A stretch of DNA of 33,765 nucleotides, taken from the NCBI GenBank assembly GCA_902627635.1, contig CACOKA010000009.1, forward strand, positions 1 through 33,765. The letters run 5' to 3'. Of this stretch, positions 31-5,363 are shown piece after piece (the stretch's first letter is position 1; each line of letters opens with the position of its first letter). Both the position numbers and the translations under genes were made by a program. This stretch comes from an uncultured Candidatus Actinomarina sp. (GTDB lineage: Bacteria > Actinomycetota > Acidimicrobiia > Actinomarinales > Actinomarinaceae). A model generated the notes under the pieces. It saw only the letters and a list, made by a program, of their open reading frames with translations. It was not told the DNA's origin and did no database searches.

Positions 31-624
31 TTGTTAAATTTTATTTTTGTAAATCGATACAAAATCGGAGTAGCATTAATTTTTGCTGGAGTCGGTGGTA
101 TCACAATTGGTGTAATAATTGCTCACTTTGCTGGATTTCCAGAAGGTCAAGTTATAGATTATTTCAATTGGATGCCAAGAGGTTGGCTCATGCAAACTAT
201 AGGTCAACTAATAGCTTTTGGTGCAGGACAATTCCTATTGATCGGAATGGCAATGCTTGCATGGCAAGATTCAGAATTAACTTGGGCTAGAGCAACATAC
301 CTAGCATTTCTAAGCTGGATACAGTTTGCACTTATATTTGGTGTATTGCCTTCAGAGTGGTTAAACCTATCTCAAGGACCCCTTGAGTGGACAAACCAAA
401 GAGAGTTTATTAATTTTCCTCCAATTCTCTTCTTAGGTAACGAAATAGGAATGAGTCTCGGAGCTTTGAAGGATATTATTCAACTTGGTATATCGGGTGG
501 AGCATTAGTCACATCATTTGTGGTTGGATATTTGATTCAGGATATAAATGAAGCAAAAGAAAGAGGAAAAACGAGAGTTTCAGACTATGGAAAACAAGTA
601 GTAAAGGTGGGTGCTGATGGCTAA
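31..624 (+). CDS. Four-helix membrane protein of the bc-type operon
   Basis: I do not recognise the family of this 197-aa protein. Four hydrophobic segments are visible at about residues 12-34, 52-78, 88-107 and 150-170, followed by a charged cytoplasmic-looking tail. It has no heme-binding CxxCH or Fe-S motif. The start is TTG; an in-frame stop lies just upstream at 13-15 and a GAGGG sequence lies 4 nt before the TTG, so little extension is possible. Its end overlaps the next gene, a ferredoxin, by 8 bp, which indicates translational coupling. Its position at the head of a ferredoxin/cytochrome b/Rieske/cytochrome c operon suggests a membrane anchor or quinone-interacting subunit, but that is inference. 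Bases 1-23 probably carry the last codons of an upstream gene, with stops available at 5-7, 13-15 or 21-23. Confidence 0.7.
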   Translation: MLNFIFVNRYKIGVALIFAGVGGITIGVIIAHFAGFPEGQVIDYFNWMPRGWLMQTIGQLIAFGAGQFLLIGMAMLAWQDSELTWARATYLAFLSWIQFALIFGVLPSEWLNLSQGPLEWTNQREFINFPPILFLGNEIGMSLGALKDIIQLGISGGALVTSFVVGYLIQDINEAKERGKTRVSDYGKQVVKVGADG

Positions 625-1066
625 ATCAGAAGTACTTATTGAAATGCCCGAATTTGAAAAAAAATATAATTTGGCCATGGTAGAGGCAGAAAAAGTTTCT
701 GCAAGAGTAAGACCAAAACAATTCTTACACATTGACGAAGCCGAATGTATTTTATGCGAAGGCTGTGTTGATATTTGTCCTTGGAAATGTATACATTATT
801 TATCAACTGATGCCATTGAGGATTCAATAAATGTTGAAGCTCCAAGTATGGAAGATAACGAAACAGGGTTTTTTGTTGTAGATGAGGAAGCGTGCACACG
901 ATGTGCTTTATGTGTAGACAGATGTCCAACAGGGGTTATATCACTTGGTAAGTTTGCTGGATCACTAGCTGATGCTGCAATAAAGAATGGCGTTTATGAA
1001 TCCCCATGGGATGAAGACTCTGGGGAGCGAAGCGATCGTCATGGATATATTTACGGAAGACTTTAA
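617..1066 (+). CDS. Ferredoxin-like protein with two [4Fe-4S] clusters
   Basis: A 149-aa soluble protein with two complete cluster-binding motifs, CxxCxxCxxxCP: CILCEGCVDICP and CTRCALCVDRCP, about 50 residues apart, as in 2x[4Fe-4S] electron-transfer subunits. The ORF track starts at GTG 611, but ATG 617 is preceded at 6 nt by AGGTGG, so I choose ATG. It overlaps the upstream membrane-protein gene by 8 bp and its TAA shares one base with the ATG of the cytochrome b6-like gene (TAATG). It has no signal peptide, so it should sit on the cytoplasmic face. Inferred role: passing electrons between a soluble donor or acceptor and the membrane complex encoded by the same operon. Cluster binding is well supported; its partner is not known. 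Confidence 0.85.
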   Translation: MAKSEVLIEMPEFEKKYNLAMVEAEKVSARVRPKQFLHIDEAECILCEGCVDICPWKCIHYLSTDAIEDSINVEAPSMEDNETGFFVVDEEACTRCALCVDRCPTGVISLGKFAGSLADAAIKNGVYESPWDEDSGERSDRHGYIYGRL

Positions 1067-1845
1067 TGAAAAACGAAAAAATTAAATTTAGAGATAGATT
1101 AAAAGACATCAGTGCTGGTCTTGGCGATTCCTTAAAAGAAAGTACCCTTTGGGGAAGTATTTTCAGACCTGGTTCCCCTTTTAGAAAAGGCTATTCCGAT
1201 AGCCCAAGAAACAGATCATATGTTGTTATGAATAATGTTTTATATCACCTACACCCTGTAAAAGTTAAAAGACATGGTGTACGGCTATCATATACTCTCT
1301 GCTTAGGTGGACTAAGCTTCTTTACTTTTATTGTTCTGACCATTACAGGTATCTGGCTCATGTTTTACTTTAGGCCAACAGAAATGGCCTATGTTGATAT
1401 TCAAACATTACAAACAAGTATCGCCTTTGGATCGCTTGTTAGAAATATGCATAGGTGGGCAGCCCACATTATGGTCTTGGTTGTATTTCTTCACATGTCT
1501 CGAGTTTTTTATCATGGAGCTTACAAAGCACCTAGAGAATTTAATTGGGTGATTGGAGTTATCTTATTACTTCTTACACTCTTACTTTCATTTACTGGCT
1601 ATCTGCTTCCATGGGATCAGTTAGCTATTTGGGCCGTGACAGTGGGTGGAAATATGGCAGGTTATACACCTGTTTTTGGTGCTCAAGTTAAGTTTGCATT
1701 ATTTGCAGGATTAGAAGCAACAGAAGCAACACTTCTTAGATTTTATGTTTTACACGTTCTATTTTTCCCTTTCATAATTGTAATCTTTATGGCAATTCAT
1801 TTTTGGAGAGTTAGAAAGGATGGCGGGATTTCCGGTCCTCTATAA
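1066..1845 (+). CDS. Cytochrome b6-type subunit (N-terminal half of cytochrome b)
   Basis: A 259-aa di-heme b subunit of a quinol:cytochrome c oxidoreductase. Four core helices carry the bis-histidine ligands H129/H143 and H230/H245. Thirteen residues lie within the first pair and fourteen within the second, which is the spacing of b6-type cytochromes (bc1-type has thirteen in the second pair). HRW before helix B, the TGYLLPWDQ stretch and the terminal ISGPL also match cytochrome b6, and the protein ends where b6 ends, so the cytochrome is naturally split. An N-terminal extension of about 60 residues is basic and cytoplasmic. It is translationally coupled to the ferredoxin gene through TAATG and followed after 6 nt by the subunit IV-like gene. 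It should bind hemes bL and bH and form the quinone sites with subunit IV. Confidence 0.92.
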   Translation: MKNEKIKFRDRLKDISAGLGDSLKESTLWGSIFRPGSPFRKGYSDSPRNRSYVVMNNVLYHLHPVKVKRHGVRLSYTLCLGGLSFFTFIVLTITGIWLMFYFRPTEMAYVDIQTLQTSIAFGSLVRNMHRWAAHIMVLVVFLHMSRVFYHGAYKAPREFNWVIGVILLLLTLLLSFTGYLLPWDQLAIWAVTVGGNMAGYTPVFGAQVKFALFAGLEATEATLLRFYVLHVLFFPFIIVIFMAIHFWRVRKDGGISGPL

Positions 1846-1851
1846 ATTTAT

Positions 1852-2703
1852 ATGGTTGATATTCCTGAACACTTATTATTAAAAACTGCTCAAGCAAGAG
1901 CTAAAGCTCTTGGTATTTCTGTTGAACAAGCTTTAGCAGAAATGAAGGGCGAAGTTGAGCCTACCAAGATTGAAAAAGAACCTGACATAATTGAAGTTAC
2001 TCCAATTGAGGTAGAAGTCAAAGAAGCACCAGCACCTGCAGCTGAGGTCAAAGAAGCACCAGCACCTGCAGCTGAGGTCAAAGAAGCACCAGCACCAGCC
2101 GCAGCAGCAGTAAAAGAAGCACCGGCACCAGAAAAAACAAATGGACAGGTACCCACTGAAGTAGATTTTGCACCTGAGACAAAGGTTACACAAAGGTTAT
2201 TGACTGTTGTTAAAGCAAAACCAATACAGAAACCCACTTCTGAACCAGTTGATAAAGTAAATACATGGCCTCACTTAATGTTGCCAGAATTTATTTCCCT
2301 AATGGCAATGACTGCATTTTTAATATTTATTAGTGCAATTTTGCAGGCTCCTTTATTGGAAGAAGCAAACCCAAACATTACTCCAAACCCTGCAAAAGCA
2401 CCTTGGTACTTTTTAGGCTTGCAAGAATTATTATCTTATTGGGATCCACAAATTGCTGGTGTGATGATACCTCTACTAATTGGAGTAGCAGCATTTATGG
2501 CAATTCCATACATCGATAGAAATAAAGAAAATAAACCTTCAAAAAGAAAATATGCAATAATGTTGTGGACATTTTTCCTTGCCGGGGCAGGAACACTAAG
2601 CCTTATTGGTATTTTGTTTAGAGGCCCAGGTTGGAACTGGACATATCCATGGATTGATGGTGTATGGTTCGATGACTTACTTGACTGGGTCCATTTCGAA
2701 TGA
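1852..2703 (+). CDS. Subunit IV-like C-terminal half of cytochrome b with repeat-rich N-terminal extension
   Basis: A 283-aa protein whose last 145 residues are the three-helix C-terminal part of cytochrome b (helices about 145-165, 202-220 and 234-255). The Qo-site motif PEWY appears as APWY (183-186), with a glutamate seven residues on in the LQELL stretch. This PxWY variant occurs in some low-potential quinone systems. Ahead of it lies an unusual cytoplasmic extension of about 135 residues: a short helical module (IPEHLLLKTAQARAKALG) followed by an Ala/Pro/Glu/Lys-rich region with tandem VKEAPAPAAE repeats. Subunit IV proteins are normally about 160 aa, so the extension is the odd feature. 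Its TGA overlaps the ATG of the Rieske gene (ATGA). The assignment of the C-terminal half is firm; the function of the extension is unknown. Confidence 0.88.
   Translation: MVDIPEHLLLKTAQARAKALGISVEQALAEMKGEVEPTKIEKEPDIIEVTPIEVEVKEAPAPAAEVKEAPAPAAEVKEAPAPAAAAVKEAPAPEKTNGQVPTEVDFAPETKVTQRLLTVVKAKPIQKPTSEPVDKVNTWPHLMLPEFISLMAMTAFLIFISAILQAPLLEEANPNITPNPAKAPWYFLGLQELLSYWDPQIAGVMIPLLIGVAAFMAIPYIDRNKENKPSKRKYAIMLWTFFLAGAGTLSLIGILFRGPGWNWTYPWIDGVWFDDLLDWVHFE
2011..2130 (+). repeat. Four tandem 30-bp units coding VKEAPAPAAE-like repeats
   Basis: Units at 2011-2040, 2041-2070, 2071-2100 and 2101-2130 share the core tcaaagaagcaccagcacc. The middle two are almost identical and the outer two diverged. 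The period is ten codons, so copy-number change would keep the frame. It encodes a flexible Ala/Pro linker in the subunit IV-like protein. Confidence 0.9.
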
Positions 2704-3575
2704 CTCTTGTTGAACTTTCATTCATCGCAATAGCATTTATAGGTATTTTTGGTGTTGTCGGGATTGCAGCTGTAGTTACTGGAAGAACTCCAAAAACTGT
2801 TACAAAAAAATTAAATTGGAAAAAGAATTTAGATAAAAAAGCATTAAAAGCTGACAAGTCTTCGACAAATTTCCTTGCCCCAGATGAACCAGATATAGAA
2901 GAAGAAAATGTATCCGAAGATATTGAGCAGGAAGAAGAAATTCAAACTGATGGATCTATATCAATAAAAGAAGAAATTATTTATGAAGAAATTTCAGAAG
3001 AGGAAGCCGGAATGACTCGTAGGCAATTTTTGGGTAAAGCTCTTGGAATTACGTTTGGAGCATTCGCAGGTATACAATTAATTTCTTGGCTTGGCTTCTT
3101 TTATCCAAAAGTTTCTGGAGGTTTTGGTTCAAAAATAGATGCTGGAAGAATTGATGATCTTAAAGATCAAATTTTTCAATCAGATGGTTCGGTTATTCCT
3201 GCATTTATTCCTGAAGCAAGGGCCTATGTTTTACCTTTTGACGATAATGGTCAATCTCAGTTTTCTGATAGTGGAACTATTGCAGACGGTTTAGTTGCTG
3301 TTTATCAGCGATGTGTCCATTTAGGCTGCCGTGTCCCATGGTGCAATACTTCTCAAGGATTTGAGTGCCCGTGTCATGGTTCAAAATATAACATGGTTGG
3401 TGAGTATTATGCAGGTCCCGCACCAAGAAACTTAGATAGATTTATTGTAAGTGTTTCAGGAGGAAAATTAATCATTGATACAGGATCAGTTATTGAGTCA
3501 CCTCGAGCTGATGGTATGTCTGTCAAATACCCACAGGGTCTTTCGTGTATTACAATCGCTGAGACTGAGGAATAA
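2700..3575 (+). CDS. Rieske [2Fe-2S] protein with two membrane segments
   Basis: A 291-aa Rieske subunit. Box I is CVHLGC (C205, H207) and box II is CPCHGS (C223, H226); these are the four cluster ligands, and C210/C225 would form the stabilising disulfide. Helix 1 (about 4-27) is followed by an acidic linker (about 60-103). A second helix (about 112-135) is preceded by TRRQFLGKALG, a twin-arginine-like motif, suggesting Tat-dependent translocation of the C-terminal Rieske domain. Canonical actinobacterial QcrA has three helices, so this two-helix form with an acidic linker differs. It starts in an ATGA overlap with the subunit IV gene, and the cytochrome c gene follows after 2 nt. Role: electron transfer from quinol at the Qo site to the di-heme cytochrome c. 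Confidence 0.93.
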   Translation: MTLVELSFIAIAFIGIFGVVGIAAVVTGRTPKTVTKKLNWKKNLDKKALKADKSSTNFLAPDEPDIEEENVSEDIEQEEEIQTDGSISIKEEIIYEEISEEEAGMTRRQFLGKALGITFGAFAGIQLISWLGFFYPKVSGGFGSKIDAGRIDDLKDQIFQSDGSVIPAFIPEARAYVLPFDDNGQSQFSDSGTIADGLVAVYQRCVHLGCRVPWCNTSQGFECPCHGSKYNMVGEYYAGPAPRNLDRFIVSVSGGKLIIDTGSVIESPRADGMSVKYPQGLSCITIAETEE

Positions 3576-3577
3576 AA

Positions 3578-5002
3578 ATGAATAGCTCATTTTTTATAAC
3601 ATTAATTGCTTTGGCAGTAGTTGGTGCAATAGCTTATTTTTCTGCAGTTGGTTTTAGAGGTGCTGGAAAGATTAAAAAGGTACCTAGAAATTTACAAAAA
3701 TATCTTCCAGATGATGAATTAGAGACAACCCATCTTGACAAGACATTATCAATAGCGGTTGTGTTAGCTTCGTTACTCACAATTATGATTCCACTTTATT
3801 ACCTTGGTGAGCCAGCAAGGCAAGAGGGTTTTGTAGAAGAGTTTGATGATGTCTCAGTCGAGAGAGGACATCATCTTTATGAAGAGTTTGGGTGTGGAAA
3901 CTGTCATGGAGTAGATGGTAGTGGTGGAGCAGCTTCATATGTTGAAAAAAGAAGTGGTGTCAGTGTTACATGGACAGCCCCTGCCATAAATAATGTGTTT
4001 TATAGATATGATGATGAAGAAGTTAGGTACTGGCTAATATACGGTAGAGCAAATTCACCTATGCCTGCTTGGGGTCTAAAAGGTGGTGGTCCAATGAATG
4101 ACGGACAGCTTGACGACTTAATAGAATACTTGCATTATTTTCAAATTCCTCAAAGTGAAGAACTTCAACAAATTGAACAAAATATAAACTCATCTTTACT
4201 ACGAATTGAAAATTCTGATTTACAAGTTGAAAGTGAAATTGATAAACAAAATGAACTTATAGAAAATATTAAGGCAGCTCCTGAAAGATTACCTGTAGCA
4301 ATTGAAGCTGTTGAAATTGTATCTGCTATCTTAGCAAGGCAAAATGGAATAGATACAGATGAAGACGGACTTTTTGACTCTGTAGAAACAGATATATCAG
4401 TCTACAGCGAGAGCATTGCAGATGTTTTGGGTACTGCAATTTTAAATCTAAACCCAGATGAAGAAGAATCAACCCCTGGAAGGAAAGACTCCTCAGTTGT
4501 TAGGGGATATCTCTCTGACCTTGAAACGAGTGTAATTAATTTAGGGATCCTTACAGATGGGTATGACAAATTTATGCTGGAAGCAGAAAAAGGTTTGGCA
4601 TTTCTCGAGAATGCTTATGAACAAAAGTTATGGCTCATTGATTTCCAAGACATTGCAGATTCAACTTTTGATGGAGATTATGACAAAGCAACAAGAGCGG
4701 TAGGGATATTTAATGCTTATTGTGCAAGATGTCATACTGCTGGTTATTCTGCGGGAGCTGCATACACAAAAACAATTGGTTCCGGCGGCTTAGGTCCTGC
4801 ATTAAAAGGTGGACGAGTAAATATTCAATTTAAAGAAAGAGATGACTTTATTGATTTTATTATTAATGGCTCTGTAAATGGTAAAGGATATGGAGTCAAT
4901 GGAGTTGGTGGAGGAAAAATGCCAGGTTTTGGTGCTGTACTTCCACAGTCAGATATAGAATTGGTTATAGACTATTTGAGAGGAATGACACCTGATGCGT
5001 GA
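3578..5002 (+). CDS. Membrane-anchored di-heme cytochrome c
   Basis: A 474-aa protein with two c-type heme sites, CGNCH (C106, C109, H110) and CARCH (C382, C385, H386). Likely sixth-ligand methionines are M162 (SPMPAWG) and M448 (KMPGFG). Two N-terminal hydrophobic segments (about 4-22 and 57-76) anchor it. The two cytochrome domains are separated by an insert of about 190 residues that is partly coiled-coil-like and contains DTDEDGLFDSVE, which resembles a calcium-binding thrombospondin type 3 loop. GAGG lies 7 nt before the ATG. It is the last redox gene of the operon and presumably accepts electrons from the Rieske protein. Its architecture differs from canonical actinobacterial QcrC, where the two heme domains are adjacent. 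Confidence 0.9.
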   Translation: MNSSFFITLIALAVVGAIAYFSAVGFRGAGKIKKVPRNLQKYLPDDELETTHLDKTLSIAVVLASLLTIMIPLYYLGEPARQEGFVEEFDDVSVERGHHLYEEFGCGNCHGVDGSGGAASYVEKRSGVSVTWTAPAINNVFYRYDDEEVRYWLIYGRANSPMPAWGLKGGGPMNDGQLDDLIEYLHYFQIPQSEELQQIEQNINSSLLRIENSDLQVESEIDKQNELIENIKAAPERLPVAIEAVEIVSAILARQNGIDTDEDGLFDSVETDISVYSESIADVLGTAILNLNPDEEESTPGRKDSSVVRGYLSDLETSVINLGILTDGYDKFMLEAEKGLAFLENAYEQKLWLIDFQDIADSTFDGDYDKATRAVGIFNAYCARCHTAGYSAGAAYTKTIGSGGLGPALKGGRVNIQFKERDDFIDFIINGSVNGKGYGVNGVGGGKMPGFGAVLPQSDIELVIDYLRGMTPDA

Positions 5003-5363
5003 GATCATGAGAACCCTGTTGTCATCTAATTTGACATTTACTGGAATTTTTCTTTTTGTATTTTTTGTTCTCTCATTTTTTGGATCAACTTTTATCTTGA
5101 ACGCTACCAATTTAGGTAGAAGGCTGGGTTTTCTTGTTGTTGGAGCTGCAACTTTTGGATGGCTGGTAATAAATTCTTTTCTATTTATACTCTATGCTCC
5201 CAGGGGACCAGCCCCATCTTCAATAGATGGTCTTAACGCTCTAGAAATCAGAATTATTCCAATTACTTACTTTGCTGGATCTTTAATACTTTTTATTATG
5301 TTTATGCTTGCCCTAAATAGATACGAGCAAGAAGAAAAGGATACAGAAGAAACAAATAGTTAA
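4995..5363 (+). CDS. Three-helix membrane protein at the end of the bc operon
   Basis: A 122-aa protein (118 aa if the second in-frame ATG at 5007 is used) with hydrophobic segments at about 14-36, 43-68 and 86-107 and a short acidic tail. I recognise no motif and no metal-binding histidine or cysteine pattern. It overlaps the end of the cytochrome c gene by 8 bp, so it belongs to the same transcript. AGGA precedes the first ATG by 10 nt, while the second ATG has GTGAG 3 nt upstream; the start is undecided. It may be a small structural subunit of the complex; this is inferred only from position. Confidence 0.65.
   Translation: MREIMRTLLSSNLTFTGIFLFVFFVLSFFGSTFILNATNLGRRLGFLVVGAATFGWLVINSFLFILYAPRGPAPSSIDGLNALEIRIIPITYFAGSLILFIMFMLALNRYEQEEKDTEETNS

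Follow-up and report, generated by a model that had tools for sequence, protein, structure and literature searches.

Why should a Rieske/cytochrome b operon open with a gene for a ferredoxin? The question is raised by seven open reading frames (ORFs) at positions 31-5363 of the window, the whole stretch of 33,765 nucleotides analysed here from an uncultured Candidatus Actinomarina sp. of the class Acidimicrobiia (contig CACOKA010000009.1 of assembly GCA_902627635.1). All seven lie on the + strand and, as a sequence-only reading of this DNA had stated, overlap or nearly touch, with overlaps of at most 14 bases or gaps of at most 6. They encode, in order, a 197-aa membrane protein (m197), a ferredoxin (Fd), a cytochrome b6-like subunit, a subunit IV-like protein, a Rieske protein, a diheme cytochrome c and a 122-aa membrane protein (Table 1). 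Genes 2 to 6 carry the Pfam families Fer4, Cytochrome_B, Cytochrom_B_C, Rieske and Cytochrom_C, and the Pfam scan placed neither the 197-aa nor the 122-aa protein in any family above cut-off. Also read back from the DNA were the split of cytochrome b into b6 and subunit IV, the APWY motif of the quinol-oxidizing (Qo) site, and the fourteen residues inside the second heme-ligand pair of b6 (H230/H245; the first pair, H129/H143, has 13 between). This gene set is a real, conserved variant of the Rieske/cytochrome b family. As the same reading had suspected, it does not appear to have been described as such: no earlier description of an Fd-b6 complex was found in the open literature searched. Its function, which we infer below, is open to testing.

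The conservation of the gene set is far beyond chance. The host genome has a size of 0.81 Mb and is 77% complete, and the genomes of the genus are small and AT-rich; genus-wide absences rest on incomplete genomes. Of 22 congeners, 19 have m197, and precisely these 19 have a cytochrome b (exactly one each); all 18 congener loci read (L003-L020) keep the order m197-Fd-b6. Outside the genus, Fd lies directly 5' of b6 in 13 of 14 other Acidimicrobiia genomes read that have a b6 of the window's type (the exception is G037), followed, where readable, by subunit IV, the Rieske protein, the diheme c and a small membrane protein. The Fd profile matched 84 of 297 Actinomycetota genomes at E<=1e-25; among 20 Fd loci from other Actinomycetota, b6 follows at once in 18, and the remaining two run into the contig end. 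Fd stands directly before b6 across more than 20 families. The expectation that Fd and m197 would be kept beside the cytochrome genes is therefore borne out, for both proteins within the genus and for Fd in the class and in all 18 resolvable loci beyond it. m197 itself represents a real, phylum-wide family, as its residues W85, P107, D148 and Q170 do not vary across a diverse set of members. A search for Fd in plasmids gave no match.

A homologous ferredoxin is found in a second complex of this family, which is linked to NAD(P). The genomes G038 and G028 encode this sister complex (L038:4780-8943, L048:4403-8678) in the order GltD/NfnB-like NAD(P) flavoprotein, b, subunit IV, Rieske and c, and the C-terminus of the flavoprotein is a 2x[4Fe-4S] domain homologous to Fd. 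Scanning genome contigs for the NAD(P) module gave 395 candidate loci; the best 80 of these (L102-L181) come mainly from Acidimicrobiia and other Actinomycetota, and b genes follow the module in nearly all of the 80 with enough sequence. Within 20 named genomes, the Fd profile found a stand-alone Fd in 17 (E<=2e-45), and its sole other matches were frames of approximately 600-740 residues, of which those in L171 and L169 coincide with the coordinates of the sister's ferredoxin domain. In the b tree, the Fd-type sequences fall together (support 0.65), as do the actinobacterial NAD(P)-type sequences (0.99). Since both types have a homologous ferredoxin next to a homologous b, the ferredoxin probably predates the split of the two types; because the sister has this domain fused to its NAD(P) module, a cytoplasmic-side ferredoxin on this b family is seen twice. 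It is very unlikely that Fd is the cell's free carrier for 2-oxoglutarate:ferredoxin oxidoreductase (KOR) and other enzymes, merely co-transcribed with the bc genes. KOR here does need a ferredoxin, but the fixed place of Fd before b6 in so many families and the fused equivalent in the sister argue otherwise.

The two types differ in the residues expected around heme cn. Cys79 of the window's b6 is aligned with Cys35 of cyanobacterial b6 and is present in 33/33 Fd-type complexes, versus 0/75 of the NAD(P) type. In subunit IV, the motif WPHxxxxE places a Glu near the position of Phe40 of b6f subunit IV, which caps heme cn, and ligation of heme cn by Glu has been reported for low-potential complexes (PMC12954380). 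This Glu is present in 27 of 28 sequences, the odd one out being a sister-type sequence, and the NAD(P) type has a His in its place (67/68). His61 of b6 is kept in all 75 NAD(P)-type b subunits; when it is compared with the interfacial heme ligand modelled for anammox complexes (His43/His62), the spacing to the C-terminal Arg/Lys fits only with an insertion. From these residues the complex is predicted to carry heme cn. Small accessory genes beside a complex often serve its assembly, and Fd and m197 could accordingly help to build the complex, for instance by attaching heme cn or inserting clusters, rather than be subunits of it. We consider this highly improbable, since the sister, without the heme cn Cys, still has the ferredoxin domain, and since the fusion of that domain to an NAD(P) oxidoreductase points to electron transfer. 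A role of Fd solely in heme cn maturation was rejected on the first of these grounds.

The reading that we favour, with something short of even confidence, is that the complex passes electrons from menaquinol to cytochrome c and has a port for ferredoxin on its cytoplasmic side, which here probably serves for electron entry from KOR. Fd has two CxxCxxCxxxC motifs and neither a predicted transmembrane (TM) segment nor a predicted signal, its start being placed at 617 rather than 611 as judged from relatives. All eight cluster Cys and a ninth, invariant Cys after CPW are very strongly conserved. The protein is acidic in all members (charge -14 in the window's copy), and the n-side N-terminal extension of b6 is basic and nearly invariant. 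A cytoplasmic port onto hemes cn/bN is the simplest reading of an acidic Fd without a signal or TM segment next to a basic b6 extension. m197 is a candidate anchor of Fd; its AlphaFold2 model from a single sequence reached a mean predicted local distance difference test score (pLDDT) of 51, and its profile gave no convincing match in the PDB. In the proposed mechanism, a complex III type composed of b6, subunit IV, Rieske and diheme c, with heme cn, would carry a dedicated Fd on its cytoplasmic face, probably held by m197 and the basic extension of b6. Quinol would be oxidized at Qo, and electrons would pass through the Rieske protein and the diheme c to a cbb3-like oxidase, while on the cytoplasmic side Fd would exchange electrons with hemes cn/bN and the Qn site. 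Entry would run from KOR through Fd and cn/bN to menaquinone, and onwards through the Q-cycle to the oxidase, although the port may be reversible. Gene order, key residues, distribution and the sharing of a motif (below) are direct observations; the hemes bound, the quinone used, the docking of the partners, and the transfer of electrons and its direction are inferred in this scheme. Ferredoxin entry via heme cn has been put forward, as yet without proof, for b6f in cyclic electron flow (PMC9342900, PMC10931702).

The metabolism of the genus is consistent with such an entry point. KorB is found in the window's genome and in nearly all congeners, and a search of the genus for the E1 component of 2-oxoglutarate dehydrogenase (OGDH) returned weak matches only. 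The genus thus appears to lack OGDH and to use the ferredoxin-dependent KOR instead, and KOR without OGDH is described for the sister order UBA5794 (PMC12008989). Since KOR is present and OGDH absent, oxidation of 2-oxoglutarate should leave ferredoxin in its reduced form, for which a sink is required. MenA in the genus scores below its cut-off, so menaquinone as the quinone is an assumption taken from the class.

A second link between KOR and the complex is a shared motif. The N-terminal 33 residues of subunit IV (IPEHLLxRSAEARAKALGxxVEQxLAEM) are found again at the start of oxidase c subunits in relatives, where they are sometimes repeated (L050:11995-13738). When a profile of subunit IV and oxidase sequences was run on 16 genomes, it matched almost only subunit IV, oxidase c subunits, KorA and one membrane protein (L215:1859-2974), whose gene adjoins CtaG in the genus. 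KorA of the window's genome (L210:2039-4702; TIGR03710, 654 bits) carries the motif at residues 1-38 and again at 759-792, and subunit IV carries it in 8/8 further congeners checked. Neither Pfam nor the PDB gave a convincing match to the 33-aa motif. It could be a docking element that, in the window's clade, brings KOR together with the respiratory complexes, or possibly a respiratory clustering tag. A bolder version of the entry scheme, which we consider somewhat unlikely, is a natural ferredoxin:menaquinone/cytochrome c oxidoreductase dedicated to this task. KOR would dock on the cytoplasmic face of complex III, and the same motif would cluster it with the oxidase, so that electrons of the tricarboxylic acid (TCA) cycle would pass through Fd and heme cn directly into the Q-cycle.

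Several points weigh against electron entry from KOR. The motif occurs in KorA of only 7 of the 16 congeners checked and in 0/4 other KorA proteins of the class, and its presence on oxidase subunits and on the CtaG neighbour means that it is possibly a general clustering signal. There is also a complex I with NuoF, and reduced ferredoxin may have other sinks. The Fd-b6 interface and the ferredoxin-linked activity are predictions. One genome, G037 (L034:514-2355), keeps m197 and b6 without Fd; as m197 is directly before b6 with only approximately 50 bases between them, Fd has been lost there, which implies that it is not essential everywhere. This loss would suit an Fd that is a reversible or regulatory appendage, sensing or equilibrating the cytoplasmic redox state with a normal Q-cycle complex and lying off the main path, and canonical QcrB is also present in many other families, so that roles may vary. 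Such a role is nonetheless quite unlikely in view of the very strong conservation of the nine Cys and of the equivalent domain within an electron-transfer fusion in the sister.

The Rieske motif, CHGS.Y in nearly all members, resembles high-potential types and also fits electron exit, the main alternative to entry. In that case the low-potential electron of quinol bifurcation would pass via the b hemes to Fd, giving reduced ferredoxin at the expense of O2 reduction. A high-potential Rieske pattern has been used as an argument for anammox bifurcation to NAD(P) (PMC12954380), and an NAD(P)-linked sister complex exists within the same class. In addition, an aerobic Acidimicrobiia autotroph that uses the reversed oxidative TCA cycle (roTCA), with pyruvate:ferredoxin and 2-oxoglutarate:ferredoxin oxidoreductases (POR and OGOR) and sulfide:quinone reductase as electron entry (PMC11697166), needs reduced ferredoxin, which an Fd complex might supply. 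We regard exit as unlikely: the predicted heme cn and its Glu are kept here and lost in the NAD(P) sister, which suggests a working cytoplasmic quinone-reducing site, and the window's lineage gets reduced ferredoxin from KOR if its TCA cycle is oxidative. The Fd complex may supply the quinone pool directly with electrons from ferredoxin. It would also alter the respiratory chain drawn for many actinobacteria, to which genome papers assign an ordinary complex III (e.g. PMC12008989). What heme cn does, and which enzyme is the ferredoxin:quinone reductase of cyclic flow, are questions that have long stood unanswered (PMC9342900, PMC10931702); a b6-type complex with its own Fd and a sister with an NAD(P) module and without cn ligands form a natural experiment on both.

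The complex is distinct from the usual actinobacterial complex III, qcrCAB (NF050120, NF050121, NF050122), with which it shares a presumed respiratory role. The claim that none of its parts fits qcrCAB stands for two of the three subunits. The window's b is split and scores 116 bits against the unsplit cytochrome b NF050120 (cut-off 500), and its Rieske protein, with one predicted TM helix, scores 29 of 275 bits against the three-helix NF050121; the cluster motif is CHGS.Y with extra Cys here versus CHQS.F in a canonical member from the class. The diheme c, however, is not foreign to QcrC, to which it is weakly related (E 5e-5). A canonical qcrCAB elsewhere in the genus was looked for, and none was found in its incomplete genomes. 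Of the Acidimicrobiia included in the phylum sample, the Fd complex without canonical QcrB is found in 21, canonical QcrB without the Fd complex in 6, both in 2 and neither in 1 (G037); the two are complementary within the class (Fisher p = 3e-4, relatedness uncorrected). As they rarely co-occur there, the Fd complex seems to take the place of the usual complex III in Acidimicrobiia. Canonical QcrB occurs alongside it in many other families, so the role of the Fd complex may differ where both occur. Upstream in the congener loci is a divergent gene of approximately 450 residues and 8-11 TM helices, COX1-like where scanned (L051). In relatives, a cbb3-like oxidase is encoded divergently next to the complex; it has two monoheme c subunits, scores far below the ccoN cut-off and is thus a divergent member. 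The window begins within the upstream flank of the operon, so the oxidase lies outside it.

Other known systems share some of these features. Like b6f (PetB/PetD/PetC), the window has a four-helix b6 separate from subunit IV, the 13/14 heme-ligand spacing with 14 residues in the second pair, a one-TM Rieske protein and, at sequence level, a Cys for covalent heme cn; ferredoxin input at heme cn is also suspected in b6f. Unlike b6f, it lacks cytochrome f, in place of which there is a diheme c of the cbb3-III/QcrC type, and it has the APWY motif, the co-encoded Fd and m197, and long N-terminal extensions. Firmicutes QcrABC resembles it in the split b6 (PRK03735, 195.7 bits, cut-off 325) and in the expected menaquinone type. 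In the Firmicutes menaquinol:cytochrome c reductase, subunit IV is fused to cytochrome c and there is no ferredoxin, whereas subunit IV is separate here. The best NCBIfam match is ExtP of Geobacter ExtP/ExtQ/ExtO (extHIJKLMNOPQS), at 288.1 bits with a cut-off of 290, and ExtQ gave 51.9 bits (cut-off 150), so that neither cut-off is reached; the ext cluster differs in its porin, rhodanese and 4- to 12-heme cytochromes, with no ferredoxin mentioned (PMC5877670).

The anammox complexes (Kuste4569-4574, Kustd1480-1485; PMC12954380) likewise combine b6 and subunit IV with a cytoplasmic Fe-S protein, a heme cN with Glu and a high-potential Rieske pattern, and they have been proposed to make NAD(P)H by quinol bifurcation. 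Their Fe-S protein is part of an NAD(P) oxidoreductase, whereas the window has a plain Fd and its seven genes contain no flavin domain by Pfam; their c subunit is multiheme (6-8), in contrast to two CxxCH sites here. An NAD(P) oxidoreductase is found in the sister complex of L038/L048, which is the closer analogue; the NAD(P) type resembles the anammox complexes and looks like their actinobacterial counterpart.

Table 1. Coordinates of the genes and sites of the Fd complex in the window.
Feature	Position	Strand	Basis or remark
m197, 197-aa membrane protein, ~four TM helices, start TTG	31..624	+	ORF; phylum-wide family
Fd, 2x[4Fe-4S] ferredoxin	617..1066	+	Fer4; clusters at 746-790 and 893-925
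Cytochrome b6-like subunit	1066..1845	+	PF00033; matches b6 in PDB
b6 His61, invariant in Fd and NAD(P) types	1246..1248	+	candidate cytoplasmic-side ligand or dock
b6 Cys79	1300..1302	+	aligns with b6f Cys35, covalent anchor of heme cn/ci
Subunit IV-like protein, three TM	1852..2703	+	PF00032; ExtQ-like
Subunit IV N-terminal motif IPEHLL...ARAKALG	1852..1956	+	common to oxidase c subunits, KorA
Subunit IV Glu146, candidate axial ligand of heme cn	2287..2289	+	conservation in relatives
Qo motif APWY, subunit IV	2398..2409	+	read from DNA
Rieske protein, one TM	2700..3575	+	cluster ligands 3312-3389; CHGSKY
Diheme cytochrome c	3578..5002	+	CxxCH at 3893-3907 and 4721-4735
122-aa membrane protein, three TM	4995..5363	+	kept 3' of c subunit in relatives

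The N-terminus of subunit IV is long, rich in alanine, proline and glutamate, and cytoplasmic, and the APWY motif is almost invariant among relatives. The single TM helix of the Rieske protein is N-terminal. This protein also has extra cysteines, Cys215 (3342-3344) and Cys283 (3546-3548), which are present in 28/28 sequences of the Fd type and may form a second disulfide. The heme sites of the diheme c are at residues 106 and 382; the distance between the hemes is 101-180 residues in many relatives, and a long insert is present in the window's clade. Within the insert lies a motif like the calcium-binding thrombospondin type 3 repeat, DTDEDGLFD (4352-4378), which is also found in L032, L033 and L035.

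Further variants were seen around the NAD(P) type. L180, on a contig titled Bacteroidota, holds an NAD(P)-type complex in which the Rieske gene precedes b6 and the heme cn Cys is absent; 248 genomes of that phylum gave one Fd match, in a 661-aa frame, and no stand-alone Fd. In L150, L151 and L156, a further Rieske/b6 cluster, distant from both types, lies upstream of the NAD(P) module and includes a c-like protein of approximately 790-870 residues.

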